Below are positions 14,030 through 31,703 of a stretch of 34,055 nucleotides of DNA, piece by piece. The first letter of the stretch is position 1. Each line of letters starts with the position of its first letter. The stretch comes from Kocuria turfanensis (GTDB taxonomy: Bacteria > Actinomycetota > Actinomycetes > Actinomycetales > Micrococcaceae), in assembly GCF_001580365.1 (NCBI RefSeq), contig NZ_CP014481.1:1-34055 (forward strand), read 5' to 3'. The notes under the pieces were generated by a model, which was not told the DNA's origin, ran no database searches, and was given only the letters and a program-made list of their open reading frames with translations. Position numbers and translations under genes: made by a program.

Positions 14030-15292
14030 TTAGCTGACGGTGCGTAGCTCTGCCCAGTCTGTGGTGTAGCGCGGGGAGAGGTCGGTTTGGTGGTTGGTCC
14101 AGGGGGTGGGGGAGTGGGCGCCGAGCCTGCCCAGGGCGAGGGTTCCGGTGCCGAAGCGGCGGTTCACCGCGTCGATGAGCTCCCCGATGGGGGCGGGCTG
14201 CTCGAGCACTCCGGGCAGGACCGGCACGGCTCCGTCGGGGACGAGGTCCGTGCAGAGGATGCCGGCGCGCATGTAGGACATGCCATGCATCAGCTCGGGC
14301 ACCAAGGCCGCCCGGGCGGCCGCCACGAGGGGCCCGGGCTCGTTGGTGGGCACGGCCAAGCGCACGTGAGCCGAGGCGTGGTGGGTGGGCCCGGGTCGGT
14401 GGGGGGAGGTGGTGGCGAAGACGGTGAGGCGCCCGGTGACTTCGCTTTCCTTCCGGAGCCGGCGGGAGACCCGTTGGGCGAACTCGGCCACCGCGGCCCC
14501 GACGATCTCCGGATCCCAGATCGGGTCCGGGAACGATCGGGAGACCAGGATCTGCTGCTTGGTGGCGATCTCGTCCTCGACGGGGATGGCGGGGAACCCG
14601 TTGAGCTCCAGGACGGTGCGCATCTGCACCACGGAGAACTTGTCCCGGACGGCCACCGGGTCGGCATCACGCAGCTGGACGATGGTCTGGATCCCCATCG
14701 CCTCCAGGCGCTTGGCCAGCCGCCCGGCGATCCCCCAGACCTCGGTCACCGGCAGAGCCGCCATGAGCCGGTCCCAGTACCCCTCGGGGGCCTGGTCCCA
14801 GTGGACCACCCCGTGCGTGGCGGGTAGCTTCTTCGCGGCCTCGGTGGCGATCTTGGCCCGCGTCTTCGAGCTGGCGATCCCGATGCTCACCGGCAGCCCG
14901 ACGTTGCGGGCTACGGTGGCTTTGAGCCGGCGCGCCCACCGCACCTGTTCCTCGGGTGTCCCCTCGGGTGGGAGCAGGAAGCACTCGTCGATGGAGTACA
15001 CCTCCTGGCCGCGGGCGTGGCGGGCCAGCAGCAGCATCACCCGCTCCGACAGGTCCGCATACAGCTGGTAGTTGGAGGAGCGTTTGATCAGTCCCCACCG
15101 GTTGGCGTCGGCGCGCAGCTGGAACCAGGGGTCACCCATCTTGATCCCGAGGGCTTTGGCTTCGGGGGAGCGGGCGACCACGCAACCGTCGTTGTTGGAG
15201 AGCACCACCAGCGGTTTGCCCGCCAGGGAGGGCTCGAAGAGGGCCTCGCAGGAGGCGTAGAAGTTGTTCACGTCCACCAGGGCGATCACCAC
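14030..15292 (-). CDS. umuC: Y-family DNA polymerase, UmuC (DNA polymerase V catalytic subunit)
   Basis: About 420 residues. The N-terminus [20 protein letters not shown] carries the first catalytic aspartate and the steric-gate region. YSIDECFL holds the SxDE catalytic pair, and the palm segment [20 protein letters not shown] follows. Helix-hairpin-helix, little finger ([10 protein letters not shown]) and C-terminal DUF4113-like regions complete the normal UmuC length. The enzyme performs error-prone lesion bypass during the SOS response when joined to processed UmuD. A GTG at 15292 (or 15289) is preferred because the family starts about three residues before the LVDxNNFYAS motif. No SOS box was found in its leader. 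Its usual partner umuD lies 16 kb away at 31254-31679. Confidence 0.93.
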
Positions 15293-15479
15293 ACACCACC
15301 CACCCTGGCTAGTGTGTTGGTATGTTGCGATGTTCGTTCTTGCGGTATTCCCTGCCTTTGGAGACGAAGTCACTGCTCATGAGGACTGGTATACCGGCGG
15401 GGGGCGACATCATTACTGGGCTCTTCACGGTGAAACCCATGCGGCAGGTCCTCCGGGGGTAACCGGTGGCCTAAACGGG

Positions 15480-15742
15480 CCCAGGCCGCCCGTTGGTATC
15501 TCCGCGGCATCCCTTGTCTGATGCCTCTTGACCTGTCCCGTGACGAGCCTGGTCGGAGGGCGGCGGTCTCTGGCGTCCGCGTGGGTGGGCGTGACCAAGT
15601 CTCTCGTAGCCGTGGGCGCGGTAGTGGGCGTGCCGGCGCTAAAGGGTCCGCGGCCCGATCCCGTGTCCTGGGCGAGGGTGGTGAGCGGAATGCCGTTCTC
15701 GACGTGCAACCGCAGGATCCGCCACCGCCCGGCCCCGTCCAC
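15480..15742 (-). pseudogene. Remnant of a DDE transposase/integrase N-terminal domain
   Basis: On the minus strand the frame GRWRILRLHVENGIPLTTLAQDTG matches the start of integrase-type transposases with a repeated helix-turn-helix. The similarity then moves to another frame: RTL, a stop, then RRHAHYRAHGYERLGH, corresponding to the usual RTLxRWLARYRAxGLxGL. A frameshift and a nonsense change have therefore occurred, and the catalytic core is missing. It lies directly downstream of the serine recombinase gene and may be debris from the same mobile element. Confidence 0.5.
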
Positions 15743-15750
15743 GGTCTGGC

Positions 15751-16377
15751 CTACTCCATGCTCGTCGAGACAGATGCCTGGCGCCGCGCCCGCGGCGGCC
15801 TGGGTGTGACGGGCCTTTCGGGGGCTCGGGCCAGCGCCCGGTAGATGGTGGTGCGGCTGACCCCGAGGATCTCTCCGATCTGGGTGACGGTCAGATCCTG
15901 CTGCTCATACATCCGCCGCGCGGCCCGCACCTGATCCGAGCTCAGGGCCGGGGGCCGGCCGCCCTTCCGGCCCCGGGCCCGGGCGGCGGCCAGCCCGGCG
16001 TTGGTCCGTTCCCGGATCAGATCGCGTTCGAACTCGGCCAGGGCCGCGAAGACGTGGAACACCAGCCGGCCCCCCGAGGAGGTCGTGTCGATGGTCTCCT
16101 GCAGGGAGCGGAACCCCACCCCGCGTTCGGCCAGCACCTGCAGCTGATCGATCAGGTGCCGGATGGAGCGGCCCAACCAGTCCAGGCGCCACACCACCAG
16201 CGTGTCCCCGGGGCGCAGCTGGTCCAGCAGCTTCTCCAGCTCCGGGCGCTGGGCGGAGGCCCCGGAGATCGTGTCCACGAACACCCGATAGCATCCGGCG
16301 GCGTTCAGCGCGTCGATCTGCAGCGAGGCGTCCTGGTCGATGGTGGACACACGCGCGTAGCCGAGAAGATGCCCCAT
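15751..16377 (-). CDS. Serine recombinase (Tn3 resolvase/invertase family) with a substituted active-site arginine
   Basis: A 208-residue recombinase. The nucleophile Ser11 lies in GYARVST. Arg9, Arg44 (SGASAQRPEL) and Arg70 are present. The E helix (HVFAALAEFERDLIRERT) and a C-terminal helix-turn-helix (TVTQIGEILGVSRTTIYRAL) are normal. The conserved motif RLDRLGR reads RLDWLGR here. Trp67 replaces the arginine equivalent to Arg68 of gamma-delta resolvase, which is needed for cleavage. A single CGG-to-TGG change explains this. The protein may bind DNA but be weak or inactive in catalysis. The ATG at 16377 is chosen because MGHLLGYARVS is the normal N-terminus. Confidence 0.9.
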   Translation of the reverse strand: MGHLLGYARVSTIDQDASLQIDALNAAGCYRVFVDTISGASAQRPELEKLLDQLRPGDTLVVWRLDWLGRSIRHLIDQLQVLAERGVGFRSLQETIDTTSSGGRLVFHVFAALAEFERDLIRERTNAGLAAARARGRKGGRPPALSSDQVRAARRMYEQQDLTVTQIGEILGVSRTTIYRALARAPERPVTPRPPRARRQASVSTSME

Positions 16378-16439
16378 TCCCCAAATGTATCGAAACCCGT
16401 CACAGCCCGTCAGTACCGCACCATAGATATCGCTACAGG

Positions 16440-16515
16440 GTTCCGCTACAAAAAACACGGCACGAGGGACCTCGAACGGGCAAATTTCGCCGATCGGCGT
16501 TTTTGTAGCGGAAAC
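16440..16515. repeat. Inverted repeat upstream of the serine recombinase (possible res subsite)
   Basis: TTCCGCTACAAAAA (from 16441) recurs inverted as TTTTTGTAGCGGAA (from 16500), separated by 45 bp. A partial third copy (ATCGCTACAGGG) is at 16429-16440. Their place just upstream of the recombinase start suits a recombination site or a transposon end. The rest of 16378-16744 shows no gene. Confidence 0.65.
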
Positions 16516-16744
16516 CTTCGTTTGATGAACAGAGGAGATGCGTAAAGGTGCGGTATCCGCGGTGGAGAGCGACGATCGTCTCGCGGCTGGCTGCAGGCGC
16601 ATGGTTGTTTCCAAGATGCGGCAGCAGCCTCGAGGTATCGGCGCAGGGTAATGGTCACTTGCGCCTGGCAGCGGAGGATGAGCGGTTCTCCCCCATCGGC
16701 GACTCGGCTGGAGCGGGGGCGGGCCGGTCTGGGATCATGTCGGC

Positions 16745-17320
16745 ATGATCGAGCTGCTGTCCGTTCTCCTCGCCCTGCTCGCCCTGGCCGTGGCCGTGTG
16801 GGCGGTGGCGCAGACCCGTCGGCTCCAGGGAACCGCCCCCCGGCGCCCCGCGCACTCCGGGAGCACGCGCCGTGACGCCGGACATGCCGAGAGCAGTGCA
16901 CCGCAGACCGCGGCGGCGCGCCGGCGACAGGCGGACGATGTGACGGCGTGGGTGTCCTCCGAACTGCACGACGCCGGCAGCAGCGCACCGGTGATCGAGG
17001 TCCAGAACCGCTCGGGCGCACCGATCTACGACCTCGTCGTCGTCTCCACCGGCCTCTTCTCCCCCGGGCCGCGCCGGACTTCGGGTCGGGACTCCCGGCT
17101 GCGCCTGCATATCTTCCCGCCCGGCCACCTCGTCTACGGTCTGCACCCGGAGCGCATCTGGGACACGGAGCGGCGCCCGGACGAGTGCCAGCGGCTGCGC
17201 CCCATGACCACCTCCACCGATCAGAAGGTCACGGCGTTCGAGTTCACGGACGCCTCCGGCACCCGGTGGCGCCGCGACGAGAACGGAGTGCTGGAGGAGG
17301 TCGCCCCCGGGCCGCAGTAA
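16745..17320 (+). CDS. Membrane-anchored hypothetical protein
   Basis: A 191-residue protein with an N-terminal membrane helix (LLSVLLALLALAVAVWAV, residues 4-21). A polar Arg-rich linker (about 22-70) and a compact domain (about 75-185) follow. The domain contains VIEVQNRSGAPIYDLVVVS and TAFEFTDASGTRWRRDENG, two phrases of a type common in actinobacterial proteins with a beta-sandwich-like C-terminus. The second (F-T-D-A-x-G-x-R-W-R-R) is typical of domains placed next to a membrane anchor. No enzyme motif is seen and function is unknown. The SD is weak; an ATG seven bases upstream ends after three codons. Confidence 0.7.
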   Translation: MIELLSVLLALLALAVAVWAVAQTRRLQGTAPRRPAHSGSTRRDAGHAESSAPQTAAARRRQADDVTAWVSSELHDAGSSAPVIEVQNRSGAPIYDLVVVSTGLFSPGPRRTSGRDSRLRLHIFPPGHLVYGLHPERIWDTERRPDECQRLRPMTTSTDQKVTAFEFTDASGTRWRRDENGVLEEVAPGPQ

Positions 17321-17741
17321 CGCCGGTGGCCTGCAGTACACGCTCTTACCAGATGTCCGACAGGTCCAGGGGCGGGTGGTCCCCGTCCAGGACGACGGGC
17401 ACCAAGCAATAATAAGGTTGCTTGCCAATGGGTGTTTCGGCTCGTAGGCTGGCTTTCCGGCCGCTTGCCCGCCATCCCTGATGTGCCCGTCGGTGCTCGC
17501 CCCGACCATCCCGGTGCCAGGCGGCGGGCAATGGGTTGGGGTGTTCGCTGCGAGGAACGGGGGTCTCGTGGGTCAGAAGCGGTATCTGCTGGGTCCTGCC
17601 GGCAATATCGCCCGGGGGAGCCTGCTGCGCTCCTCCGGGCCTCTGGGGGTGGCAGTGGTTGGCCGCGCTCTGCGATGGAGTGGGGGCGTCTTGAGCCAGG
17701 TGCTGCCGTCGCGGTGGCGTTCTCGGGTGCAGCTGGCAACC
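17321..17741. other. Region without a supported gene; possible gene remnant on the minus strand
   Basis: At 17346-17410 on the minus strand the frame reads YYCLVPVVLDGDHPPLDLSD and then IW and a stop, which looks like the end of a real protein. The similarity cannot be followed upstream and no family is recognised. The rest is GC-rich without features that could be defended. Confidence 0.3.
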
Positions 17742-18230
17742 GTGGTGCAGCGGTGGCCGGCGGAGGGTCCTGCTTCGGCGGCCCCGGCGGCGACCACGTG
17801 CCGGACGGTGGCGCGAGCTGTGGCCTGTTCGGTGGCGGATGCCCCCGGGGTGGTGCGGTTGCAGCCGACGCCGGCCACCGCTGTGCTGGCGGTGGTCTCG
17901 CCGGTGACCGATGCCCCGGACCCATCCTGGCGACCGTCCCGTACCCGCGTCGGCACCTGCAGCGGCGTGCACGTGCGCGCTGTCGGCGGACGGGCAGAGG
18001 TGGCCGTGCACCTGTGCATCGACCCAGCCGGGGTGGCCGCTGCTGACCGGTTGCGTGCTGCGGTGGCCATCGCCTCCGGGGTGGAGGATCGTGTTGTTTC
18101 GGTGCTGCAGAGAACGGGGTGGCGCTGCGGGGCTGTGGACATCACCGTGCACGCCCTCCGGAAAACCACGACAATCCCAGCTCCTGGGCACGTCCTGGCC
18201 GGGGTCGGACGGGGGCGAAAGGAGGGGTGA
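17742..18230 (+). CDS. Asp23/Gls24-like envelope stress protein
   Basis: About 162 residues from the GTG at 17742. The pattern TVARAVACSVADAPGVVRLQP, then VHVRAVGGRAEVAVHLCID, then a helix and AVDITVHAL matches the two alpha-beta halves of the Asp23/Gls24 (DUF322) family. Members sit at the cytoplasmic face of the membrane and respond to cell-envelope or alkaline stress. In actinobacteria they often occur in small operons with membrane-anchor partners. The start is uncertain: the frame is open back to 17481, and GTG codons at 17568, 17700, 17742 and 17745 are candidates without a strong SD. The similarity is by pattern and should be treated as probable. Confidence 0.6.
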   Translation: MVQRWPAEGPASAAPAATTCRTVARAVACSVADAPGVVRLQPTPATAVLAVVSPVTDAPDPSWRPSRTRVGTCSGVHVRAVGGRAEVAVHLCIDPAGVAAADRLRAAVAIASGVEDRVVSVLQRTGWRCGAVDITVHALRKTTTIPAPGHVLAGVGRGRKEG

Positions 18231-18234
18231 CGGT

Positions 18235-18270
18235 ATGACCGGCGGGGAGGCCGCAACCGGACTCCGGTAG
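18235..18270 (+). CDS. Eleven-residue ORF behind a strong SD
   Basis: GAAAGGAGG at 18217-18225 is the best SD in this part of the window. It is followed nine bases later by ATG and the short frame MTGGEAATGLR. This may be a leader peptide, or what remains of a partner of the Asp23-like gene cut short by mutation. Bases 18271-18392 hold nothing else that I can name. Confidence 0.3.
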   Translation: MTGGEAATGLR

Positions 18271-18392
18271 GAGGACCCGAGGTCTCCACGTCCTTGGCTT
18301 CCCTCCAGGACGGCTGGAGGTGGCTCGTGCGAAGGGTATCTGGAGTGAGGTGTGGTGATGCCGCACCCCACCGGGGGCAAGGGGGAGCCGTG

Positions 18393-18956
18393 ATGGATCA
18401 CCACGAGGATGCCGGGGCACCGGGGGTGACGGAGGCATCCGGCTTCCAACAACGCGTGCCGGCGGACCAGCAGCTCCTGACCGATTTCCTCACCGGGTTC
18501 GCCCGGGTGCTGGAAGAGGATCTCTCCCGGCCCGGGGAGACCCGGGTGTGGTGCGCGGTGACGGTGCTGGGTGGGGGTCGGGCGGAGACGATCGCGGCCA
18601 GCAACGACCGGGCCCTGTCCTTGGACCAGTTGCAGCTGCGGTTCCCGGACGGACCCTGCCTGGCCTCGGCCCGCGAGCACGTCCTGGTCCACACCGGGGA
18701 CACCCGCACCGACCACCGGTGACCGGAGTTCTTGCGGGCCGCCGCGGCCGAGGGGATCCATTGCGTACTGGGGATGCCCTTCGAGCTGGGCGATCAGCCG
18801 CTGCGGGCCGGACTCAACGTCTACTGCGACCGGCCCCACGCCTTCGACAGCGACGCCATCCTGGCCCTCCAGGACAGGGCCCGTGCCGCCTCCACCGCCC
18901 TGGGCTCCGCCGTACGGTCGGTGGCACGGCAGGTCATGGCGCCGAAACCGGCCTGA
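18393..18956 (+). pseudogene. GAF-domain regulator interrupted by one in-frame TGA
   Basis: 188 codons in one frame with a single internal TGA at 18720-18722. The N-terminal part has FARVLEEDLSRPGETRVWCA and SNDRALSLDQLQLRFPDGPC. After the stop the frame continues with PEFLRAAAAEGIHCVLGMPF and LRAGLNVYCDRPHAFD. Both parts belong to one GAF domain of the type found in actinobacterial GAF/ANTAR regulators. The family has Trp at the site of the stop (DxRWPEF), so TGG became TGA. No ANTAR domain follows. ATG 18393 is preceded by GGGGGAG at the right distance. Without readthrough a truncated 109-residue product would be made. Confidence 0.8.
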
Positions 18957-19244
18957 ACGGCACAGCAGCAGCGTCCCACCGGCGACGGGGCGCCACGTAC
19001 CGCACGCCGCCTGGGCCCGGGGCGCAGACCGTCGTCCAGTGATGCCCGGGTGGGAAAACGGCGACGACCCGGGCGTCATGAGCCGCCGGTGACGGGCCTG
19101 GTATTGGCGAGGAAACTAAGTGTGCTTACCCTGGTGGTGCTCGAGGAGAACACGAAAGGCCCTGGTCAGCGGGTCCTCCGTCGGCCCGTCACGGACCCGG
19201 AGGCTGGTGATGCGGGGCCGCTGAGAACGAGAGGAGCCACGACC

Positions 19245-19658
19245 ATGGCTGAGTTGATGCGTAGGAACTTCGATGCGCTCGAGCCCTTCCGTCGCCTGCT
19301 GGAGGGCGATCTGAGCCCCTCCTGGCCGCGGGTGGAGGAGTTCCAGGACGGGAACACCCAGGTGATCCGCGCCGAGCTGCCCGGCATCGACCCGGAGCAG
19401 GACGTGGAGCTGACCGTGGTCAACGACACCCTGCGGCTGCGGGCCCAGCGGCGGGAGCAGTCCGAGCACAAGGACAAGGACAGCTACCGCTCCGAATTCC
19501 GTTACGGCTCCTTCTCCCGCGTCCTGCCGCTGCCGGCCGGGTGCAAGGAGGAGGACATCACCGCCACCTACACCGACGGGGTGCTGGAGGTCCGGGCCCC
19601 GATGCCGGAGCGGGACGAGCAGCAGAGAACCCAGAAGATCGAGGTCACCCGCGGCTGA
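19245..19658 (+). CDS. hsp20: Small heat-shock protein, Hsp20/alpha-crystallin family
   Basis: A 137-residue ATP-independent holdase chaperone. The alpha-crystallin domain occupies about residues 30-125: IRAELPGIDPEQDVELTVVN, then YGSFSRVLPLPAGCKEEDI, then TYTDGVLEVRAP with the conserved GVLEV. A short N-terminal arm (RRNFDALEPFRRLLEG) is typical of the actinobacterial Hsp18-like group. The C-terminal tail ends QKIEVTRG, with the I-x-V anchor that docks on neighbouring subunits. The ATG at 19245 follows GAGGAG by eight bases. Neither a CIRCE element nor a complete HspR (HAIR) box was seen upstream. It likely works with the Clp ATPase encoded 1.1 kb downstream. Confidence 0.94.
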   Translation: MAELMRRNFDALEPFRRLLEGDLSPSWPRVEEFQDGNTQVIRAELPGIDPEQDVELTVVNDTLRLRAQRREQSEHKDKDSYRSEFRYGSFSRVLPLPAGCKEEDITATYTDGVLEVRAPMPERDEQQRTQKIEVTRG

Positions 19659-19674
19659 CGCACGACCGCACCGC

Positions 19675-19712
19675 GGTGGTGGCGGGCCAGGCGCGCCTGG
19701 CCCGCCACCACC
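19675..19712. terminator. Perfect 17-bp hairpin after hsp20
   Basis: GGTGGTGGCGGGCCAGG, loop CGCG, then the exact complement. There is no U-tract. It lies 16 bp after the hsp20 stop, and the stem is very stable. Confidence 0.7.
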
Positions 19713-19856
19713 GGCCCCAGGGAGAAGGGGACCAGGACGACCGCCGCGCCCGTACGGTCCCCGGTCTTCCTGTCGACCCCGAACCTGGTGGTCAGCAGCG
19801 CCGGCTGCCGGCCACCGGGCTGCCCAGGACGAGACCACGAACAGGAAGTGACGACC

Positions 19857-20330
19857 ATGTCCCATCCCACCCAGCCCACCGCCTCCACCCACTACCAGGT
19901 CCTGCGGACGGTGCCCACCTACGCCCAGGCCCAGCGCATCGTCGACTCCCTCTCCGACGCCGGGTTCCCCGTCGAGCACGTGCGCGTGGTCGGCACCGAC
20001 CTGCGCCTGGTCGAGCAGGTCACCGGCCGGATGACCTACGGCAAGGCCGCCCTGTACGGAGCCGCCTCCGGGGCCTGGCTGGGGCTGCTCATCGGCTTGC
20101 TGTTCGGCATCTTCGTCATCGTGGGGTGGCTGTCGGTGATCCTGTGGTCGGTGGTCCTGGGCGCGGTGTGGGGGCTGATCTTCGGGCTCCTGGGCCACGC
20201 CGCCACCGGCGGGCGCCGGGACTTCAGCAGCGTCCAAGGCATCGAGGCGACCTCCTACGAGATCCTCGTGGAGGCCGAGTACCTCGATGCAGCCGCCGCC
20301 AAGCTCGGCACCAGCCGCCCCACGGCCTGA
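19857..20330 (+). CDS. YflT/general-stress-protein-17M-like membrane protein
   Basis: 157 residues. The N-terminal domain (about 12-60: YQVLRTVPTYAQAQRIVDSL, VEHVRVVGTDLRLVEQVTGR) matches the general stress protein 17M/YflT domain. A Gly-rich hydrophobic hairpin follows (about 63-118: AALYGAASGAWLGLLIGLLF, then VGWLSVILWSVVLGAVWGLI), and the tail ends SYEILVEAEYLDAAAAKL. Proteins of this layout are stress-induced in Gram-positive bacteria; the molecular role is not established. ATG 19857 follows AGGAAG. It lies between hsp20 and the Clp gene on the same strand. Confidence 0.83.
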   Translation: MSHPTQPTASTHYQVLRTVPTYAQAQRIVDSLSDAGFPVEHVRVVGTDLRLVEQVTGRMTYGKAALYGAASGAWLGLLIGLLFGIFVIVGWLSVILWSVVLGAVWGLIFGLLGHAATGGRRDFSSVQGIEATSYEILVEAEYLDAAAAKLGTSRPTA

Positions 20331-20760
20331 CTCCACACCGCCGGGCCTATCGAGAGACCGGGGCCGCCGATGTGCGGGCCCGGTCAGAGGGTAGGCGCCA
20401 GGAGGGCTGTTCCCCTTGGGTGATACCGGCCAGGACACTGGGCCGCACCGGTGTGCACGGGCACCACCACGAGACCTCACCGCTCAGCACCATCGTCCAG
20501 CGGCACGGGCCTGCGGGTTTCTTCCGGTGGCACAGCCCCACCCGTGGTCCTCGCCAACGCCGTCGCGATGCCGTCTTCGCTTGCTGCGCGCGGCCCGAGG
20601 CGGGGCACCGTGGGCGACGGATGCCACTGAGCCCTATCGCCGCCGTCCGAAAGCTGGCTAGGCTCTGCTGACGGTGATGTTCTGGGCTCCCTCCGACCGA
20701 CCCCAGCATCTGCGGATGCGGAACGATGCCGTGTCAGGTATGCCAACTAACGATCACTCA
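20331..20760. other. Long leader region of the Clp gene
   Basis: No gene is supported in these 430 bases. It must contain the clp promoter. ACTCAA at 20755-20760 matches half of an HspR (HAIR) site, but no partner half is present at the right distance. Confidence 0.4.
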
Positions 20761-20761
20761 A

Positions 20762-20776
20762 CGCCTGTAGGAGGCG
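20762..20776 (+). promoter_or_regulatory. Small hairpin that overlaps the SD of the Clp gene
   Basis: CGCCT (20762-20766) can pair with AGGCG (20772-20776) around GTAGG. The SD AGGAGG (20769-20774) lies half in the loop and half in the stem, five bases before the ATG at 20780. A stem this small would melt easily, so heat-dependent translation is possible but unproven. Confidence 0.35.
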
Positions 20777-20779
20777 ACA

Positions 20780-23392
<2,613 letters not shown>

Positions 23393-23435
23393 CAACACCC
23401 CACCAACGGGCCACCACCCACCTTTGACACGCCCC

Positions 23436-23477
23436 GACGGGGCGGGGACAGACCCACCAGCCCGTCCCCGCCCCGTC
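23436..23477. terminator. Perfect 14-bp hairpin after the Clp gene
   Basis: GACGGGGCGGGGAC pairs with GTCCCCGCCCCGTC across a 14-base loop, 43 bp after the stop. There is no U-tract. The remaining bases to 23732 contain no supported gene. Confidence 0.65.
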
Positions 23478-23732
23478 ACCAGGCGGATCCACCGGATGCG
23501 CCCATGCTGCGGCCGGCATGGCCGACAAACAACGCCCCCGAGAGGGGCGAACGCTCCACCCGAGACTCCCGGTGCGGGTCCGGACCGGCTCAGCGCTCTT
23601 CAAGGGCGTTGAGCCTCTGCCCGAGGACCCCTGCCGGAATCAGCCCCCCACCGCAGCAGAGCCATCCTGGCGAACACCCCCTGCGTCGCCACACAACGTG
23701 CCGGGCTTCACGCGCCCAACAGTGCGGCACCC

Positions 23733-24445
23733 GTGTCGGACCTGCAGGAGCTGCTGCTGGCGTCCGAGGACATCACCGGGTTCCTCGACGATTTCACCGC
23801 CACCATCGCCGAAGCCCTGTCCACCGATCGCGACGAGGTGTGATGCGCGGTGACCCTGTTGCGCCCCAAGCGCTCCACCACCGTGGCCGCCTCCAGCGCC
23901 CGGGCCGAGGCGCTGGATGAGATCCAGTACCACTACGTCGACGGGTCGTGTCTGACGGGGCGCAGGAACACCGGGTGGTCTGCATTTCCGCTACCCGCAC
24001 CGGCCCGAGGTGGCCGGCCTACGGGGCCGCCGCCGCGGCCAACGGCATCCGCTCCGCTCTGGGCGTGCCCCTGGAGCTGGGGTGAGGCCACCGCGGGCCT
24101 GGACGTCTACGCCGACCGCCCCGACGCCTTGACGCGGCAACCCGGGAGGTCATCCAGCGCCAGGTCGCCGAGGCCTCCACCATTCTGCGCCTGGCCGTGC
24201 GCCTGGCTGTGCGCCTGGCCCGCCACCACGACACCGAAGCGGACCTGCAGGCGGCCATGGCCTCGCGGACCACCATCGACCTGGCCGTGGGCATCGTCAT
24301 GGGCCAGAACCGCTGCACCCAGGAGAAGACCTTCGAGATCCTGCGGGCGGCCTCCAGCCACCGCAACGTCAAGCTGCGCGAGCTGGTCGCCGACCTCGTC
24401 GCCCAGGTCGGCAAGGGACCGGCCAGCACCCACTTCGAGGCCTGA
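23733..24445 (+). pseudogene. Decayed GAF-ANTAR regulator
   Basis: The frame VSDLQELLLASEDITGFLDD begins near a GTG at 23733; the true start may be further upstream. It meets TGA at 23841, exactly where the sister gene has Trp (VWCAVT). It continues as CAVTLLRPKRSTTVAASS. A frameshift near 23962 moves the match to another frame (EHRVVCISATRTGPRWPAYG). A second near 24080-24086 leads to EATAGLDVYADRPDA, and a third near 24132 to DAATREVIQRQVAEASTILR and the ANTAR domain (MASRTTIDLAVGIVMGQNRC). ANTAR proteins bind RNA and prevent transcription termination. With one nonsense change and three frameshifts this copy is dead, unless the last piece (for example from 24197 or 24257) is made separately. 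Confidence 0.8.
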
Positions 24446-24458
24446 CCGTCTGCCCGTG

Positions 24459-24490
24459 CCCACCGGCTGTGCCGCGGCACCGCCGGTGGG
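24459..24490. terminator. GC-rich hairpin after the GAF-ANTAR remnant
   Basis: CCCACCGGC (24459-24467) pairs with GCCGGTGGG (24482-24490). The loop itself contains the palindrome GTGCCGCGGCAC. There is no U-tract. Confidence 0.6.
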
Positions 24491-24622
24491 CCCGACAGGG
24501 CCGCTTCGGTCACCTGCTCGGACACGGGGCCTGACTGGAAGCCGGTTGCTGTACCACTTATTGTTGAAGGGTGGTCAAGCAGTCGGCCGCGCCACCGTTC
24601 GTGTACGCCGAAAGCTGCTGTT

Positions 24623-24985
24623 GTGAATCACAAGCTCTCCGTGACCGTCCAGGTCGATCTGGACGGCGAGTACGTCCGCGTCCTCGCCACCGGGTGCCTC
24701 ACCGAGGCCAGCCAGCGCGCCCTGCACCCGCTGATCCGCCGGGCCCGCATCCTGACTCCCGGCATCCACGTCACCGTCGACCTGTCCGGGGCCCACCACA
24801 TCGAGGCGACCGGGATGGAGCTGCTGCGCCGCGCCCTCGAGGACACCGACTCCGCCGGTAGCCGCCCAGTGGCCCTGGTGGTCCCGGACGTGTTGCCCCA
24901 CCACCGGATCACCGTCTCACCGGAAAGTCGGGTGACGCCCGACAGCTCCGCCGGCACGGGCCCGGCCCGGAAGGTGGCGGCATGA
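24623..24985 (+). CDS. STAS-domain protein (anti-sigma-factor antagonist type), copy 1
   Basis: A 120-residue protein with a single STAS fold (about 3-90: LSVTVQVDLDGEYVRVLATG, then IHVTVDLSGAHHIEATGMEL). In SpoIIAA/RsbV proteins the motif DSSG carries the phosphorylated serine. Here the corresponding residues are EATG, so Thr could take that role. Such proteins release sigma factors by binding their anti-sigma kinase; no kinase is encoded in the window. GTG 24623 is chosen from the alignment with copy 2 (MDHQLSV). The SD is weak. The stop overlaps the next ATG (ATGA). Confidence 0.75.
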   Translation: MNHKLSVTVQVDLDGEYVRVLATGCLTEASQRALHPLIRRARILTPGIHVTVDLSGAHHIEATGMELLRRALEDTDSAGSRPVALVVPDVLPHHRITVSPESRVTPDSSAGTGPARKVAA

Positions 24986-25242
24986 GCCCGACCGCCTCTG
25001 CCCCCACCGAGGGTGCCACCAGCACCTGTTTGGGGCCGGACTGTGCTTTCCCGGCTGATCTGAGCGCTCTGTCCCTGATCGAGCTGCACGTGTTGCACAG
25101 CCAGATCTGCCGTCAGCTCGACCGGGAGTACCTCACCACCCCGGAGGGGGCTCACCCGTTCACCCTGGACCGCCATCAGGAGGTCCTTGCCGAGCTCGAC
25201 GCCCGCGAGAGCGCCCTCGCCTCCACCGCACCCGTCCATTGA
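24982..25242 (+). CDS. Small hypothetical protein coupled to the STAS gene
   Basis: 86 residues. After a flexible N-terminus with two cysteines (TCLGPDCAFP), a helical segment reads LSALSLIELHVLHSQICRQL, followed by LDRHQEVLAELDARESAL. It resembles a short helical hairpin adaptor; no family is recognised. The ATGA overlap with the preceding STAS gene suggests joint production, so it may bind the STAS protein or its target. Confidence 0.65.
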   Translation: MSPTASAPTEGATSTCLGPDCAFPADLSALSLIELHVLHSQICRQLDREYLTTPEGAHPFTLDRHQEVLAELDARESALASTAPVH

Positions 25243-25270
25243 CGCCCCGCCCCGGGTCCCCGGGCCACCA

Positions 25271-25499
25271 CACCTGCGGCGCGCGTGGTCGTGGCGGACC
25301 AGCCACACCGGGGTCGAGCAGCGGCTGATCGCCCTGGCCAGCGGCACCCCGCTCGGGCCGGCGACGTCGTCGCGCGGCTGCCAGAGCTCCTCCGCCCGGT
25401 GCTGGCCGAGTACGGCCAGCAGGAGCAGGTCGAAGTGGTGGTGGCCGACATCCTGCGTGATGGCTGCGGGGTGTGGCATCAACGCGAAGCCACGCGACC
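25271..25499 (+). pseudogene. Probable frameshifted gene remnant
   Basis: One frame reads WSWRTSHTGVEQRLIALASG. Near 25360 a shift by one frame gives AGDVVARLPELLRPVLAEYG, then VEVVVADILRDGCGVWHQRE. Together they look like one broken coding region, helical with a conserved-looking acidic strand. The family is unknown. The remaining bases to 25612 show nothing else. Confidence 0.4.
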
Positions 25500-25612
25500 G
25501 GCCACAGCTTGGGAGACATCGCACGCAGGGTGCTGGCCCTCATCCACCACGCCCCAGAGGGAAAGTCGACGACCCTCACCGCTTGAAGCGGATCATGAAC
25601 CGGAAGGACACC

Positions 25613-25996
25613 ATGCCCACCACCTCGAAGACCGACAGTCACCCGGGTCACTTCGCCCGGTTCACCACCGCTGCCGCCAACGCCCTGGGCCGGCCCGGGA
25701 TGTTCCTGCTGGCCGCGGCGCTCATCGTCGCCTGGGCGGTGAGCGGGCCGTTCCTGGACTTCTCCGACACCTGGCAGCTGATCATCAACACCCTCACCAC
25801 CCTGATCACGTTCCTGATGGTGTTCATCATCCAGAACACCCAGAACCGCGACAGCGCCGCCGTGCACCTCAAACTCGACGTCATCATGCGCCAGCTCGAC
25901 GTCAAGGACCCCACCCTCTACGACGCGGAGAACCGCAGCGAGGAAGAACTCGAGCGCGAGGATGCGCTCATCACCCCGACCGCGCCCCGGCCGTGA
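25613..25996 (+). CDS. Low-affinity iron permease family membrane protein
   Basis: 127 residues with two membrane segments (MFLLAAALIVAWAVSGPFLD; LIINTLTTLITFLMVFIIQN). The diagnostic run IIQNTQNRDSAAVHLKLDVI of the Iron_permease family follows, then an acidic tail. Despite the family name, the transport activity of the short bacterial members is doubtful, and they may have another role at the membrane. The ATG at 25613 has GGAAGG five bases upstream; another in-frame ATG is at 25595. It lies between the two STAS genes. Confidence 0.88.
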   Translation: MPTTSKTDSHPGHFARFTTAAANALGRPGMFLLAAALIVAWAVSGPFLDFSDTWQLIINTLTTLITFLMVFIIQNTQNRDSAAVHLKLDVIMRQLDVKDPTLYDAENRSEEELEREDALITPTAPRP

Positions 25997-26202
25997 TTTG
26001 CTGCCGCCTGACCGACACCGGCCGGTGACACCCCGGCCGCCCCGGCATCCACCCTTGTCAACGGCAGGTTCAAAGGTACTCGTCGGTTAGGGAAATGTGG
26101 GCACGCTCCAGCAGATCCCCTTGTGATCCCCGGGGGACCTCCCTCGCGTGGACAGGCGCCGGCAGGTCGTCGGTGATCGTGCACGCGATGAAGGGTGCCC
26201 CT

Positions 26203-26670
26203 ATGGATCACCAGCTCTCGGTGCTTGTCCAGGTCGACCTCGACGGCCGCTATGTGTGTCTGCTCGTCACCGGATGCCTGACCGAGGCCAGCCAGCAGGC
26301 CCTGTCCCCCGTGGTGGCACGGGCCCGGACGTTGCTCCCGCCGGTGATCGTCAGCGTCGATCTCACCTCCGCCGCCCATGTGGAGGCCCCCGCGGTGGAT
26401 TTGCTGCGCTGGGCGCTTGACCACGACGAGTGCCCGCACGAGGTCACCAGCCCGGTGCAGATTCTCACCCCTGCCGAGCTGCCCGATCACCGTCCCGCCC
26501 CCGCCTGGTCCCCGTCCTCGGCAGCCCCGTGGCCGGCTGTGAGCCTGAGCGCGGTGCCCGAGATGGCTTCATCGGTGCGCCTACTCTCGACGTCCCCGGG
26601 GGAACCAGCCAAACCCGTGGTCGCAGGCCACCCTCGGCGGCGCGGTCGTACACACCGGGCACGTCAGTGA
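26203..26670 (+). CDS. STAS-domain protein, copy 2, lacking the phosphoacceptor
   Basis: 155 residues. The first 90 align with copy 1 at 24623: LSVLVQVDLDGRYVCLLVTG, then CLTEASQQALSPVVARARTL. At the site of the regulatory Ser/Thr this copy reads EAPAVDLL, so it cannot be phosphorylated there. Family logic suggests either a permanently active antagonist or a non-functional paralog. A Pro/Ser-rich tail extends the C-terminus. ATG 26203 is chosen by alignment; an in-frame ATG at 26188 is possible. Upstream, 26068-26098 holds GGTTCAAAGG and GGGAAA, weakly reminiscent of a sigma-B-type promoter. Confidence 0.7.
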   Translation: MDHQLSVLVQVDLDGRYVCLLVTGCLTEASQQALSPVVARARTLLPPVIVSVDLTSAAHVEAPAVDLLRWALDHDECPHEVTSPVQILTPAELPDHRPAPAWSPSSAAPWPAVSLSAVPEMASSVRLLSTSPGEPAKPVVAGHPRRRGRTHRARQ

Positions 26671-26700
26671 CCACCGCCGTGACCGTAGGGAGGAAACCCC

Positions 26701-27003
26701 GTGGCCACCGATTACGACGCTCCCCGCACAGCCCCTGAGGACGAGCCGGTCCGCGAATCGCTGGAGGAGATCCGCGCCCAACGCAACGCAACCGCCCAAA
26801 CTCCGATCCTCGAAGACGACGACGACACTGCCGAGAGCATCGACCTGCCCGACGCGGACCTCATCGAGGAAAATCTGACCATCCAGGTCATTCCCGAGCG
26901 AGAGAACGAATTCGTCTGCGCCTCCTGCTTCCTGGTTCACCACCGCAGCCAGCTCGCTCGTGAGGGCCCAGGCGCCAAGTACTGCACCGATTGCGACACC
27001 TGA
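26701..27003 (+). CDS. DUF4193 family zinc-ribbon protein
   Basis: A 100-residue actinobacterium-specific protein. It begins MATDYDAPR, has an acidic middle (LEDDDDTAESIDLPDADL), and ends with a zinc ribbon: CASC, then HHRSQLAREG, then CTDC. Chromosomal members are conserved in Actinobacteria and of unknown function. The GTG start follows GGGAGG. It may be a second copy brought in with the island. The next gene is convergent after 92 bp, with no clear terminator between them. Confidence 0.92.
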   Translation: MATDYDAPRTAPEDEPVRESLEEIRAQRNATAQTPILEDDDDTAESIDLPDADLIEENLTIQVIPERENEFVCASCFLVHHRSQLAREGPGAKYCTDCDT

Positions 27004-27095
27004 CGCGCAGGCGGCGGTCCCACGAACACGGATGACGAGTTCGCCCACCCGGCGGTGAACCAAACGACGCCGCGGATCACTCCGGCTTGCGACGC

Positions 27096-29621
27096 TCAGG
27101 GCTGCGCTGTGCTGGATGCCGAGGGAAGCACGGTTCGCAGCACTGCGGTTGGGCTCTCTTCGGCGGCGAGCAGCAGTCCGGCGTAGTGAGCGTTGCTGGC
27201 GGCGACGGTACTGCGCCAGCGCACGGCGGTGGCCAGGTGCATGCCAATGAGGTCGGCGAGCACGGGTGGTGGCAGCTGTTGGGACAGGGTGGTCAGCGCC
27301 CCGGTCCGGGCCGGAGCCACCAGGACACCGGCGGCGGCCAGCCGTCGCACCAGAGCGGCCGCCGACAAGGGTGTCCCTGGTTGGGCGCCCGGGTACAGCC
27401 AGTGGTGGTCGCGGGCGGGGGCCAGCATCCGGCGTGCGGTGCGGTCCGCCGCGGCCCCTGTAGCCAACTCGGCCAGGGGGACGGGCAACAGCAGCGGCTC
27501 CGGTCCCACCGTGACCTCAACCGTCCCGCCGGTGGACTGGATATCGCACAGGCGGATCCGGGTGATCTGGGCCGGGCGGATGCCGAAAACCAGCACCAGG
27601 GCGGCAGCCAGCTTCGTCCCCGGCCCGATGGCCTCGCGCTCCAGGACGTCATCCAGGACCTGGCGTCGGTGGTCATCGCTGAGTCCTCCGGCCAGCAGGT
27701 ACGTCCTGGGCGGGCGGGTGATCTCCAGGGGCTGGCTGCGGCCGTTGATGTGGGCCCAGGTGAGGAAGCCGCCCACGAGGTATCTTTCGGCGCCGGTAGT
27801 GGCCCAGTGGTCCAGGTCGGCCTGATCCAGGGTCGCCAGAGTCTTGCCCCGGTGCCGGGCCCAGGCGAGCAGTTCAATCACGATCCGCAGCTCGCGCCGG
27901 CGGCTGGTGACCAGCGGACCGGACAGGGGTTCCGTACGGCTCCTGAGATCGCGCAGGTGCTTCCAGGTGGCGAACTGGAGGAACGCCTGCCGCTCACCCG
28001 GGTCCTCGATCAGTTGGGCGGCGGTGGGGATCCACGCCTGGAACCGGGCCAGCGGCAGATTGCGAGCGGGCAGCAGGCCGTGCTCGACCAGCAGCGCCCG
28101 CACCGCCCGGGTCGTGTACTCGGGCCCCAGCTCGTCGAGGGCCTCGTGATCGAGCAGCTCCGGGGTGGCCAACACCGTGCGTAGCAGTTCCACGGCGCGG
28201 TGGCGGTGGAAGGCATTGCGGATGGTGCCGGGGTTCCCGGTCTGGAGGTCGGTGAGCATCGTGCGGGCGGACCCGTTGCTGGCGAGCAGTTCGGGGGGGA
28301 ACAAGGTGGCGAGCTGGTCATCGGCGGTGCACCGGTCGCACAGCCCGGTGCGTTTCAGCTTGGCGTGGCGGCCGCAGCGGGTGCAGTCGCGGAAGCTGAC
28401 CGGGTGGCGCGGGTAGCAGTATTCGCACAGGGGCGCCCCCTTCACCCGTCCCACGACGCGCCGGTGTCGGTGGCAGACGCTGCAGGGCTCGAGGATGTGG
28501 TGGCAGCTGTGGCAGATCGGGGCCCCGTGCTCATCCCGGGTGGCGACGACCCGCTCCTGGCCGCACCGGGAGCATGTCTCCCTCCGCTTGCGGCACTTCT
28601 CGCACATCGCGTCCGGGGTGCCGGGGAACCGGCACGGTCTGGTCTGCCCGCACCGGGTGCAAGTGTCCATCTGGGCGTTGAGCCGGCACGGGGCGCAGAC
28701 GGGTCCGGCGGGGCCGCGGTAGACGATGTGCTGGTGGGTGCCGCACTGGGTGCAGGTGTCTGAGGCATCCGGGAGGGCCTTCGCGCACCCCTGGCACAGC
28801 CGGGCCTCGTCGGTCATCCGTCGGGCGATCGGGGCCGTACGCCCACATCCGTCGCACGGTTGGGATCGCAGTGCGGTGTAGCACCGGGAGCAGCAGCGCA
28901 GACCTTCATAGACGTTGGTCAGCGGCCGGTGCTGCCCGCAGTGCCCGCAGCACGCCGGCGGCAACTCGGGTGCCTGGTGGGTCAGCTGATCGTAGAGGAC
29001 ACCGAAGAGGGCCGACCCCCGGGCAGGGGCTGCGAACCAGTCCGCTCCGTAGTCGGCGACCTCCAGGGCCAAGCGCAACCGGCGCCCGGGGACGGCGGGA
29101 AGCTGGGCGAAGATCCCCGCCAGGACCGCAGGATCCAGGGAGGGGATCAGGCCGTGGGCGGCCGCGACGAAGATCGCCGGTGCTTGCCCGTACATGCCCC
29201 GCCAGCAGGTCCCGCAGTAGTCGACGTCCCCAACGCAGGAGGCGAGCTGACGCTCTCGTCGACAGCAATGACAGATGATGGCCCTGGTGCCGGCCCGCTT
29301 CTTGCACGTGGAGCAGACCCGGTGCCCGTCGAGGCGTTCGGGCAACATCCGCTCGAGACCACAGCCGGCGCAGCGCGGCAGACGCACCGAGGTGGCACCG
29401 GCCTCGAGCAGGGCGGCGATGACGCGCTGCAGCAGGGTCGGCATCGCATTGGTCCCCGAGGTCAACAGCCCCGGGTCCGCCTGAAGCTGACCCAGCAGCC
29501 GGGTCCCGGAGGGGGGCCGCACGACGATGACGGCCAGGATCTCCCGGAGGCGGTCGGCGGGTACACCGGCCTCCACCATGCTGATCACCTCGGTGAGAGA
29601 CCGCCCCGGGTGCTCAACCAT
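27096..29621 (-). CDS. 841-residue protein with nine zinc-ribbon-like motifs and a recombinase-like C-terminus
   Basis: An N-terminal helical region (1-80) precedes nine pairs of CxxC motifs: 84-106, 117-139, 224-247, 256-279, 290-312, 321-343, 350-373, 380-402 and 413-431. Each pair is spaced like a small zinc ribbon (for example CTRCG, then CEKC). A long helical region (440-660) leads to a C-terminus reminiscent of tyrosine recombinases: LVFGIRPAQITRIRL (Arg682), ARTGALTTL (Arg772), IGMHLATAVRW (His795) and NAHYAGLLL (Tyr813). Catalysis is uncertain because the HxxR motif is incomplete. ATG 29621 overlaps the preceding gene by eight bases. With the two genes upstream it forms one operon. 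The architecture recalls the accessory recombinases of Tn554-type elements, but with an array of metal-binding modules. Confidence 0.85.
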   Translation of the reverse strand: MVEHPGRSLTEVISMVEAGVPADRLREILAVIVVRPPSGTRLLGQLQADPGLLTSGTNAMPTLLQRVIAALLEAGATSVRLPRCAGCGLERMLPERLDGHRVCSTCKKRAGTRAIICHCCRRERQLASCVGDVDYCGTCWRGMYGQAPAIFVAAAHGLIPSLDPAVLAGIFAQLPAVPGRRLRLALEVADYGADWFAAPARGSALFGVLYDQLTHQAPELPPACCGHCGQHRPLTNVYEGLRCCSRCYTALRSQPCDGCGRTAPIARRMTDEARLCQGCAKALPDASDTCTQCGTHQHIVYRGPAGPVCAPCRLNAQMDTCTRCGQTRPCRFPGTPDAMCEKCRKRRETCSRCGQERVVATRDEHGAPICHSCHHILEPCSVCHRHRRVVGRVKGAPLCEYCYPRHPVSFRDCTRCGRHAKLKRTGLCDRCTADDQLATLFPPELLASNGSARTMLTDLQTGNPGTIRNAFHRHRAVELLRTVLATPELLDHEALDELGPEYTTRAVRALLVEHGLLPARNLPLARFQAWIPTAAQLIEDPGERQAFLQFATWKHLRDLRSRTEPLSGPLVTSRRRELRIVIELLAWARHRGKTLATLDQADLDHWATTGAERYLVGGFLTWAHINGRSQPLEITRPPRTYLLAGGLSDDHRRQVLDDVLEREAIGPGTKLAAALVLVFGIRPAQITRIRLCDIQSTGGTVEVTVGPEPLLLPVPLAELATGAAADRTARRMLAPARDHHWLYPGAQPGTPLSAAALVRRLAAAGVLVAPARTGALTTLSQQLPPPVLADLIGMHLATAVRWRSTVAASNAHYAGLLLAAEESPTAVLRTVLPSASSTAQP

Positions 29622-29970
29622 CGCTGGGAGGCACGATCTGGGCCCGCTTGGGCCGGGCCCCGGAGGCGCGCAACGCATCAGCCGAGCCCTCGGGCGACCC
29701 CGCCTCGGTGCCGGTGCGGGTGCGAGTGGTGGCCGCGCCGAGATCGACGCGGGTGATGAGATCATCGGCGGTGCAGCCGAAGATGTCCATCAGGGCCACC
29801 AGCACGTGCAGACTCAGCCGTTCCGGTTTCTCCGCCGCCAGCCGGTAGACCTGGCTGGCCGACAGATGGATACCCCTCGCTTCCAGTTCCGGGATGAGCT
29901 TGGTGGTACTGAACATCCCCGCAGCCGCCATCACCTGCCGCAGCTTCCACTCATAGCCGATGACCTTCAC
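29614..29970 (-). CDS. Small Cro/CI-type HTH protein between two recombinase genes
   Basis: 118 residues. Residues 5-70 form an XRE-like helix-turn-helix domain: WKLRQVMAAAGMFSTTKLIP, LSASQVYRLAAEKPERLSLH, then LVALMDIFGCTADDLI, close to the YozG-like branch. The C-terminal 45 residues are polar and basic and probably flexible. The ATG overlaps the TGA of the tyrosine recombinase (ATGA), and its own stop overlaps the start of the large protein. It is probably a repressor of the operon or an excision factor (directionality factor) for the recombinase. Confidence 0.88.
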   Translation of the reverse strand: MKVIGYEWKLRQVMAAAGMFSTTKLIPELEARGIHLSASQVYRLAAEKPERLSLHVLVALMDIFGCTADDLITRVDLGAATTRTRTGTEAGSPEGSADALRASGARPKRAQIVPPSDG

Positions 29971-31097
29971 TGTCTCTGCCCTCCCGGGGTCGTGGGCAGC
30001 ACGGCCCGGATCGCGTCGTGGAGCATCTTGTTCTTGAAGTCCCCGCTCACGGCCGTGTAAAGCGCGGTGGTGGACTGGTAGACGTGACCGGCCTGTTCCT
30101 GGACGAAGCGGGGGTCCACCCCGTCCTCGATCAGATGGGTCACGTAGCTGTGGCGCAGACAGTGCGGGGACAGGTCCGGATCCAGGCCGAGCTCATCGCG
30201 GTAGAACCCGAACCGGTCCGCGACGTCACGGGCCTGCAGCCGGGTCCCGCGCTCGGTCAACCACAGCGCATTAGAGGCCGCACTGGAAGCGCTCTTCACG
30301 ACCAGGGGACGGACGTGGGTGATGTAGTCGACCACGGCCTCCACCGCCCAGTCGAAGAGGGAGACGACCGAGCGGCGTTTGGGCGCACCACCCCGGGAGG
30401 CCTTCCCGAAGCGGACCTGCAGCACCCCGTAGTCACCGAACTGGGCAGCGTGCGGGTTACGGTAGAAATCGGTGACATCCAGATGCGCGGCCTCATTGGC
30501 GCGCAAGCCCCAGGCGTAGACCACCTTCAGCAGCGTCGCGTCGCGATAGGCGATCACCGCGCCCTTGCGCCCGGCATCCAGCCGGGCCGCCACCTCGGCA
30601 TCGGCTCGATCGAACAACTTCTGCAGCTCATCCCGGCTCAACGGCCGACGCCCCGGGCGCCCCTCGTAGCCCTGCAGGTGCTGGGCGGTGTTCTCCTCGT
30701 GACAGATCTGGCTCGGGGGCTCACCGAAGCGCCCTTCGCACTGGGCGACCCACCCGTAGTGCTCCGAGCACAGATAGGCGCAGAAAGAACGCACCGCGTA
30801 CTGGTAGGAGCGGATGGTGGTGGGGGCCAGCGCCCGGGTGCTGACCCGGTCGGTCATCCACTCATCGAACAACTGCGGACTCCACCGCCACGGCCACTCG
30901 TTGGTGCTGGCCTGGAACCGCCGCACCGTGGACACCACCGCGGCCACGGACCGCCGCTGAAGTCCACGCCCGCCGATCATCTGCGCCGACCACCCCTGGA
31001 CCATGGCCTCGAAGACGGCTTCTTCCTCCTGCAGAAAGGTCACACCAGGGGCCAGCACCAAGGAGGCCGCCCCCTGCGGCACTTCGGCCTTCACCAT
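29967..31097 (-). CDS. Tyrosine recombinase/integrase
   Basis: 376 residues. The N-terminal SAM-like core-binding domain (about 25-120) includes LAPTTIRSYQYAVRSFCAYL. The catalytic domain (about 150-365) shows all expected residues: Arg199 (GLRANEAAHL), Lys232 (FGKAS), His312 and Arg315 (HCLRHSYVTHL), His338 (AGHVY) and Tyr347 (TALYTAVS). It cuts and rejoins DNA through a 3'-phosphotyrosine link. ATG 31097 is preferred; an in-frame ATG at 31127 overlaps the upstream repeat. As first gene of the three-gene operon it is the likely catalytic subunit of an element-specific integration system. Confidence 0.92.
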   Translation of the reverse strand: MVKAEVPQGAASLVLAPGVTFLQEEEAVFEAMVQGWSAQMIGGRGLQRRSVAAVVSTVRRFQASTNEWPWRWSPQLFDEWMTDRVSTRALAPTTIRSYQYAVRSFCAYLCSEHYGWVAQCEGRFGEPPSQICHEENTAQHLQGYEGRPGRRPLSRDELQKLFDRADAEVAARLDAGRKGAVIAYRDATLLKVVYAWGLRANEAAHLDVTDFYRNPHAAQFGDYGVLQVRFGKASRGGAPKRRSVVSLFDWAVEAVVDYITHVRPLVVKSASSAASNALWLTERGTRLQARDVADRFGFYRDELGLDPDLSPHCLRHSYVTHLIEDGVDPRFVQEQAGHVYQSTTALYTAVSGDFKNKMLHDAIRAVLPTTPGGQRQ

Positions 31098-31126
31098 CAG
31101 AACCCCATCACCAAATGGGCGAATCA

Positions 31127-31246
31127 TGCATCTAATGCAGAGACTATCCGAGAGCCTTCTGCATGACGAGGGGTTCACCGGATCGGATAGACACCCTGAT
31201 GTCAAACGTCGGCACTGTCACCAGGCGAAATCGTGCATCTGATGCA
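31127..31246. repeat. Two near-palindromic repeats upstream of the recombinase operon
   Basis: TGCATCTAATGCA at 31127-31139 and TGCATCTGATGCA at 31234-31246. Both are preceded by CGAA and an ATC. The arms TGCAT/ATGCA are separated by three bases, a layout typical of recombinase core sites or dimeric repressor operators. They bracket the operon leader, which also contains TTGACA (minus strand, 31205-31200). Confidence 0.75.
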
Positions 31247-31253
31247 ACTTCGT

Positions 31254-31679
31254 TCATCTGACGTGGCGGATGCCGTAGACCACCACACCCCAGACCACCA
31301 GTTCCGACAGGGACGGAACCTCGACGTCGGGGTAGGCCGGGTTCTCCGGGTGCAGTACCACCCGGTCGGGGTAGACGTGGAGGGTTTTGATGGTGAAGTC
31401 CCCGTCCAGCACCGCGATCACCACATTGCCGTCCCGCGGGGTCAGTGACCGGTCCACGAGGACCTCGTCGCCGGAGTAGATCCCGATGCCTTCCATGGAG
31501 TCCCCGGTGACGCGGAAGAGATAGGTGGAGGTCACATCGCGGATCAGAACCTCGTTGAGGTCGATCCTCCCGTCGTCGAAGCTGTCCTGGGCGGGGGAGG
31601 GGAACCCGGCCGGGACCCGGACCAGGACCGCGTTCACCAGCACCGGGTCGTCAATGGTCAGCGGTACTGGTGGTCTCAT
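31254..31679 (-). CDS. umuD: UmuD-like self-cleaving SOS mutagenesis protein
   Basis: 141 residues of the LexA/S24 peptidase family. The self-cleavage region VPAGFPSPAQDS (expected between Ala24 and Gly25) has the FPSPA motif conserved in UmuD. The catalytic pair is Ser61 (TGDSMEGIGI) and Lys98 (DFTIKTL). RecA-assisted cleavage would yield UmuD', the activating subunit for UmuC. The ATG at 31679 is chosen because an earlier in-frame GTG lies inside the SOS box. TATTGT (31690-31685) ends six bases before this ATG and there is no SD, which fits a leaderless mRNA. umuC is 16 kb away. Confidence 0.92.
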   Translation of the reverse strand: MRPPVPLTIDDPVLVNAVLVRVPAGFPSPAQDSFDDGRIDLNEVLIRDVTSTYLFRVTGDSMEGIGIYSGDEVLVDRSLTPRDGNVVIAVLDGDFTIKTLHVYPDRVVLHPENPAYPDVEVPSLSELVVWGVVVYGIRHVR

Positions 31680-31691
31680 GCAACCACAATA

Positions 31692-31703
31692 GAACACACG
31701 TTC
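31692..31703 (-). promoter_or_regulatory. SOS (LexA) box of umuD
   Basis: GAACACACGTTC is an exact match to the GAAC-N4-GTTC SOS box of Gram-positive bacteria. It lies directly upstream of the probable -10 (TATTGT), so LexA would block RNA polymerase until DNA damage. Confidence 0.85.

Follow-up and report, generated by a model that had tools for sequence, protein, structure and literature searches.

The window analysed here is the 34,055-nucleotide stretch at positions 1 to 34,055 of contig NZ_CP014481.1 of Kocuria turfanensis (GCF_001580365.1), in which three genes on the minus strand, encoding a tyrosine recombinase (YR), a small XRE-type protein and a large protein, form the core of a 15.9-kb element. 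The YR gene (29967..31205) gives a product that matches PF00589 (E=1.3e-21) and carries six catalytic residues, R235, K268, H348, R351, H374 and Y383, that are invariant in all 29 aligned YRs from such trios; its true start probably lies near 31097 (Met-Val-Lys), because relatives start there. The XRE-type gene (29614..29970) encodes an HTH_26 protein (E=1.4e-13), which was aligned with 17 trio relatives, and the gene for the large protein of 841 aa (27096..29621) is an open reading frame (ORF) within an open frame that extends to 889 codons (27096-29765). The overlaps are 4 bp (YR/XRE) and 8 bp (XRE/large). The head-to-tail trio with overlaps of 4 and 8 bases, the YR with all its catalytic residues and the small XRE-type middle protein had all been proposed from the letters of this stretch in the original prediction and were borne out; the range that it gave (27096-31246) holds the core, but the element as a whole runs from 15315 to 31259.

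The large protein appears to join two parts. Residues 84-431 (28329..29372, minus strand) form a putative zinc-ribbon array, and the nine CxxC pairs proposed for it were found as 18 CxxC motifs, compared with a mean of 2.0 and a maximum of 7 in 2000 composition-keeping shuffles (first-Cys positions 84/103, 117/136, 225/244, 256/276, 290/309, 321/340, 350/370, 380/399 and 413/428). Across the family the more intact ORFs fall into two size classes, with about 14-20 and about 5-7 CxxC motifs. The window protein itself gives no hit in Pfam or NCBIfam at E<=1, but among the 31 aligned relatives 14 match Phage_integrase at E<=0.1 (best 2.9e-6), while ribbon families are matched at the same threshold by seven (DZR_2) and five (DZR). 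The best Protein Data Bank sequence match of the large-family profile is XerD (E=0.0011, profile positions 577-768). The C-terminus had been described as degenerate and recombinase-like; the likeness stood, and a recombinase fold was found where an unrelated one had been allowed for, although the domain covers about residues 539-821 (27159..28007, minus strand) and not 660-841. It has no tyrosine at the nucleophile position (0/30 large proteins), and five of the six catalytic residues are missing from some or all family members: His-II is kept in 1/30, Lys in 2/30, His-III in 0/30 and the first Arg in 16/30, with the second Arg (R772) present in 31/31. The C-terminus appears to be a complete but inactive-looking recombinase fold.

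The three genes go together, as had been proposed. A class-level search gave 29 loci besides the window, and in the best 20 of these 29, which were fetched with their flanks, XRE and YR ORFs lie upstream of the large gene on the same strand in 20/20, with the order YR-XRE-large kept in all (at L152 the YR match is a 98-aa ORF only, and at L156 the large gene is broken). Within the genus, YR matches at E<=1e-80, which come from 7 of 27 genomes, have a large-protein match directly downstream in 14/14 cases (compared by eye). A large protein found mostly without the recombinase, which would have refuted the original prediction, was not what these comparisons showed. Among 31 other loci the departures are a contig or record edge (L043, L048, L106), YR fragments (L042, L102), a split large gene (L032, L042, L050), an outer trio at L097 in which YR is parted from XRE by a nested trio, and a large gene at L105 without adjoining YR or XRE and with a transposase gene beside it. 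The large protein occurs in 64 of 394 class genomes at E<=1e-20 and has relatives in 210 plasmid records at E<=1e-5; a scan of genome contigs yielded nine loci, listed as weak.

Some of these trios have unusual surroundings. The nesting at L097 (3428-11544) is on a Pseudonocardia plasmid, where one trio interrupts another and parts its YR gene from its XRE gene. In the strain of the window, contigs C1 (L031) and C3 (L032) each carry a more distant trio whose ribbon array is short, the latter with an in-frame stop in its large gene. More distant trios adjoin other recombinase genes: at L108 (6233-14088) the trio is flanked on one side by a recombinase gene and on the other by a large recombinase plus DUF6262 gene, neighbours that look like a Tn554-type set, and similar neighbours are found at L107 and L104.

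Comparison of genomes, which the original prediction had suggested as a way to the element ends, located them at 15315 and 31259 (including an ambiguous 6 bp at 31254-31259) and upheld its claim of mobile-element machinery. The whole of 15315-31259 recurs, inverted, 99.6% identical and with different flanks, in the 3.5-Mb contig C1 of a second genome from the genus (G014), where the copy is chromosomal and at a non-umu site. The window contig probably represents a circular plasmid, because the 55 bases at its start are repeated at its end. In the window the element separates umuD (31254..31697, minus strand, Peptidase_S24) from umuC (14030..15373, minus strand, IMS, IMS_C and DUF4113; tblastn of relatives) exactly at their junction, and in an empty site (L068, genome G021) the two genes are joined at the same point, CGCCACGTC|CACTGACCAGGG. 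The window junctions read CGCCACGTC-AGATGA-ACGAAG...CCAACA-CACTAG-CCAGGG. As a result umuD ends one codon later, inside the element (AGA TGA), with its length unchanged, and the umuC ORF is intact (as listed it extends into the element; the native start is probably outside), while the operon is parted by 16 kb. The G014 junctions read GGGGG-AGATGA-ACGAAG...CCAACA-AGATGA-CGCCCC; as matches to the G014 flanks lie close together in G013, G016 and G019, these genomes have the site without the element. The G014 insertion site is part of a palindromic repeat of which that genome holds several diverged copies, and the palindrome pattern had no match outside G014.

The 6 bp at the two ends differ in origin. 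At the cargo-side end (15309..15314) the window keeps the 6 bp that are native to the target (CACTAG, minus strand), to which CACTGA (L068) and CACTAA (L070) correspond at uninterrupted sites, whereas AGATGA at the recombinase-side end (31254..31259, minus strand) is foreign to the umuDC target and supplies the umuD stop codon. Comparison of Arthrobacter plasmids pA8H1 and pA40H2 gives the same pattern, a cargo-side 6 bp that is the target's own and a foreign recombinase-side 6 bp. At umuDC in the window, and in pA8H1, the 6-bp footprint shows no simple duplication, but the G014 copy is flanked by identical 6 bp at its two ends. The AGATGA of the window equals the cargo-side 6 bp of the G014 copy (chance 1/4096 with equal bases), which would fit a donor copy of G014 type that followed the rule of the strand-biased circularizing elements (SE) discussed below.

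A short motif marks both the recombinase-side end (TGCATCAGATGCACGA, 31231..31246, minus strand) and the region before the probable YR start (TGCATTAGATGCATGA, 31124..31139, minus strand). The form TGCATYAGATGCAYGA has two copies in the window, 107 bp apart (shuffles: mean 0.02, none with two), and a short form with <=1 mismatch is paired at a spacing of 106-107 bp in nine of the 13 upstream regions (window, L029, L045, L046, L047, L049, L050, L097 and L099b, several of them related); with one mismatch allowed, this short form has seven matches across the whole window. An inverted-repeat scan upstream of YR beat all 60 shuffles in L022 only, where a 16/17-bp inverted repeat just upstream of YR (positions 130-168 of the region, about 2335-2373) is a candidate operator.

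The umuD/umuC junction is occupied in the window, L022 (pA40H2), L044 and the first element of L099 (pA8H1), and the pA2H2 element is also described at the umu junction (PMC6305408). Codon ~93 of umuC (numbered on the 447-codon window ORF) is hit by L050, L100 and a second, 8.8-kb element of pA8H1, for which pA40H2 provides the empty site. Insertion into dprA near codon 142 is seen with both halves of the gene in L030, L045 and L046 and with one half in L043 (N-half) and in L029, L049 and L097 (C-half); the other half for L029 was not found in L115 or L116. The insertions at L045, L046 and L049 are not independent, because L045 shares 89.2% identity with L046 and 86.6% with L049. A 7,197-bp element is 99.96% identical between L030 (in dprA) and L100 (in umuC, Brevibacterium), which means that one element has entered two target genes. 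No consensus across the target sites was seen by eye. Two further trios abut genes on the opposite strand that are possible targets, an N-terminally short DNA ligase gene at L098 (6612-7406) and a YhcG_C PDDEXK gene at L047 (7975-8370).

We consider it likely that the trio serves as transposition module for an integrative element with site preference, whose mobility follows from its fixed ends, the near-identical copies at different sites and the clean umuDC insertion. In the mechanism proposed, YR, as the sole subunit with the full catalytic set, would join the element ends into a circle across the 6-bp spacer and then integrate this circle at the target. The large protein would be a non-cleaving, recombinase-fold protomer within the recombination complex, with its zinc-ribbon array touching DNA beyond the crossover (at the element end or the target) or a partner, and the XRE protein would bind both copies of the motif, at the element end and the operon promoter, so coupling repression to complex assembly. 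The original prediction had similarly cast the zinc-ribbon protein as a possible DNA- or target-recognition subunit and the XRE protein as a candidate repressor or determinant of direction. Several observations count against this scheme. Alignment of the large and YR family profiles with hhalign was not significant (prob 0.2) and W802 of the large protein is not kept in 2/31 rows; Tyr813 is kept in 30/31 and could be a displaced nucleophile; the motif pair is missing in 4 of 13 upstream regions (L022, L044, L098 and L100); and the AGATGA on both sides of the G014 copy, taken alone, resembles a 6-bp duplication. Also, the recombinase-side 6 bp may be a partly fixed end rather than donor-derived, because TTCTCG (flank to element) is common to L030 and L100 and similar in L029, L050 and L097.

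Three other explanations were weighed. It is rather improbable that the large protein stays outside the complex as a DNA-binding regulator derived from a dead recombinase fold, leaving YR alone to move the element. A still smaller chance is given to a large protein that remains catalytic through the displaced Tyr813, which would make this a two-recombinase transposon of Tn554 type: the conservation of Tyr813 and R772 and the completeness of the fold speak for it, but the near or complete loss of His-II, Lys and His-III, and the retention of the first Arg in 16/30, speak against it. A trio that does not move and only resolves plasmids or chromosomes is hardly credible, and this reading was rejected, since the near-identical, sharp-ended blocks at different chromosomal and plasmid sites outweigh the 210 plasmid records and the probable circular plasmid of the window. 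Within the transposition module that we favour, a further idea is put forward as speculation: the zinc-ribbon array could be a modular DNA reader that opens several unrelated targets to one recombinase, the number of ribbons (about 5-7 to 14-20 CxxC across the family) altering specificity and the family favouring, for the most part, genes of DNA repair and DNA uptake (umuDC, umuC, dprA, perhaps the DNA ligase and PDDEXK nuclease genes).

The closest described relatives are the 'XER modules' noted in 2018 on Arthrobacter plasmids pA2H2, pA8H1 and pA40H2, in which, according to the passages on them, YR, XRE and a second recombinase-annotated gene form a core with variable cargo between umuD and umuC (PMC6305408). 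Homologues of all three genes lie in the same order in L022 (pA40H2) and L099 (pA8H1), with identities of 59% (YR), 65% (XRE) and 42% (large) between pA40H2 and the window. The window trio is of the same kind, as both the core order and the umuD/umuC insertion with variable passengers fit, although the cargo is unlike the window's and the G014 copy, unlike these modules, is at a non-umu site. The XER module passages mention neither element ends nor empty sites, and neither zinc ribbons nor a loss of catalytic residues (PMC6305408).

The element probably works like Tn554, SE and GInt elements, yet it fails the gene-content tests for each, as these are set out in the relevant passages of PMC10214605. 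SE, from Gammaproteobacteria, have an intA-tfp-intB-srap core with two catalytic recombinases and are characterised by a strand-biased circle and by excision that leaves no empty donor site; they share with our element a tyrosine recombinase, a recombinase-fold protein without catalytic motif, cargo and apparently the behaviour of a 6-bp spacer, but the target's 6 bp is at the intA-side end in SE and at the cargo-side end here (PMC10214605). Membership was rejected on the three-gene core with one catalytic recombinase (srap was not searched by sequence). Tn554 has a small recombinase gene, then a large one, then a small third gene, and a 6-bp footprint (PMC10214605); its three genes have counterparts here, but both of its recombinases have the catalytic motif, whereas here the small one alone has it and the third gene lies in between; it was rejected because the large protein lacks the catalytic set (aligned Tyr 0/30), with Tyr813 as a caveat. 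GInt islands of Proteobacteria (ginABCD) likewise set catalytic recombinases, two of them, beside a non-catalytic recombinase-fold protein, GinC (PMC10214605). They were rejected on the two recombinase-type proteins in our core as opposed to three (GinD was not searched). The gamma-mobile-trio (GMT) was rejected because YR reaches 18.5 bits with the GmtY model (cut-off 340) and 9.2 with GmtZ (cut-off 600), and neither the large nor the XRE protein matched an NCBIfam model at E<=1. RIT elements consist of three adjacent catalytic recombinase genes and were rejected because the middle gene here encodes an XRE protein and the third lacks the catalytic set.

Two further groups share single features. 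The Tn554-related pairs of actinobacterial plasmids (Famint36/41), as described in part of a 2012 survey (PMC3414803), place a short recombinase beside an abnormally long one. In the pair on Arthrobacter FB24 plasmid 1 (150,000 of 159,538 bases covered), which we infer to be the listed one, no gene lies between and the long partner has one CxxC; identity was rejected at 2.7 bits for this partner against the large profile (one of six listed records). The integron-like elements in rulB, in the passages on them in PMC4542609, also put a recombinase module with variable cargo inside a plasmid umuC-type gene, but they differ in their Pseudomonas host, three predicted recombinases plus a tetR homologue, and a 3-bp direct repeat. 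Our searches of open-licence papers turned up no zinc-ribbon/inactive-recombinase partner, dprA target or paired end/promoter motif.

The cargo (15751-27003) reads as a stress-tolerance set and presumably resembles the heat-tolerance islands of other bacteria. It comprises a serine resolvase (15751..16614, minus strand, Resolvase E=1.2e-43) and, on the plus strand, HSP20 (19050-19658), YflT (19788-20330), a ClpB-like AAA+ ATPase (20780-23392), an iron permease-like protein (25187-25996) and DUF4193 (26701-27003). The window strain (G000) has two further umuDC operons, on contigs C4 (L067) and C5 (L066), in which umuD and umuC are adjacent and UmuC is 88-90% identical. At L069 (G021, contig C26, 1860-3537) a related element has left its cargo-side end, in diverged form, at the same umuD/umuC site, the remainder having apparently been lost.

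The element belongs to a widespread actinobacterial family that moves with its cargo from chromosome to plasmid or the reverse and has entered genes of DNA repair again and again. The combination of one catalytic recombinase with an inactive-looking zinc-ribbon fusion would allow a direct test of the role of the second subunit in transposition of the Tn554/SE type, and the same core provides a way to test how such elements choose their targets.
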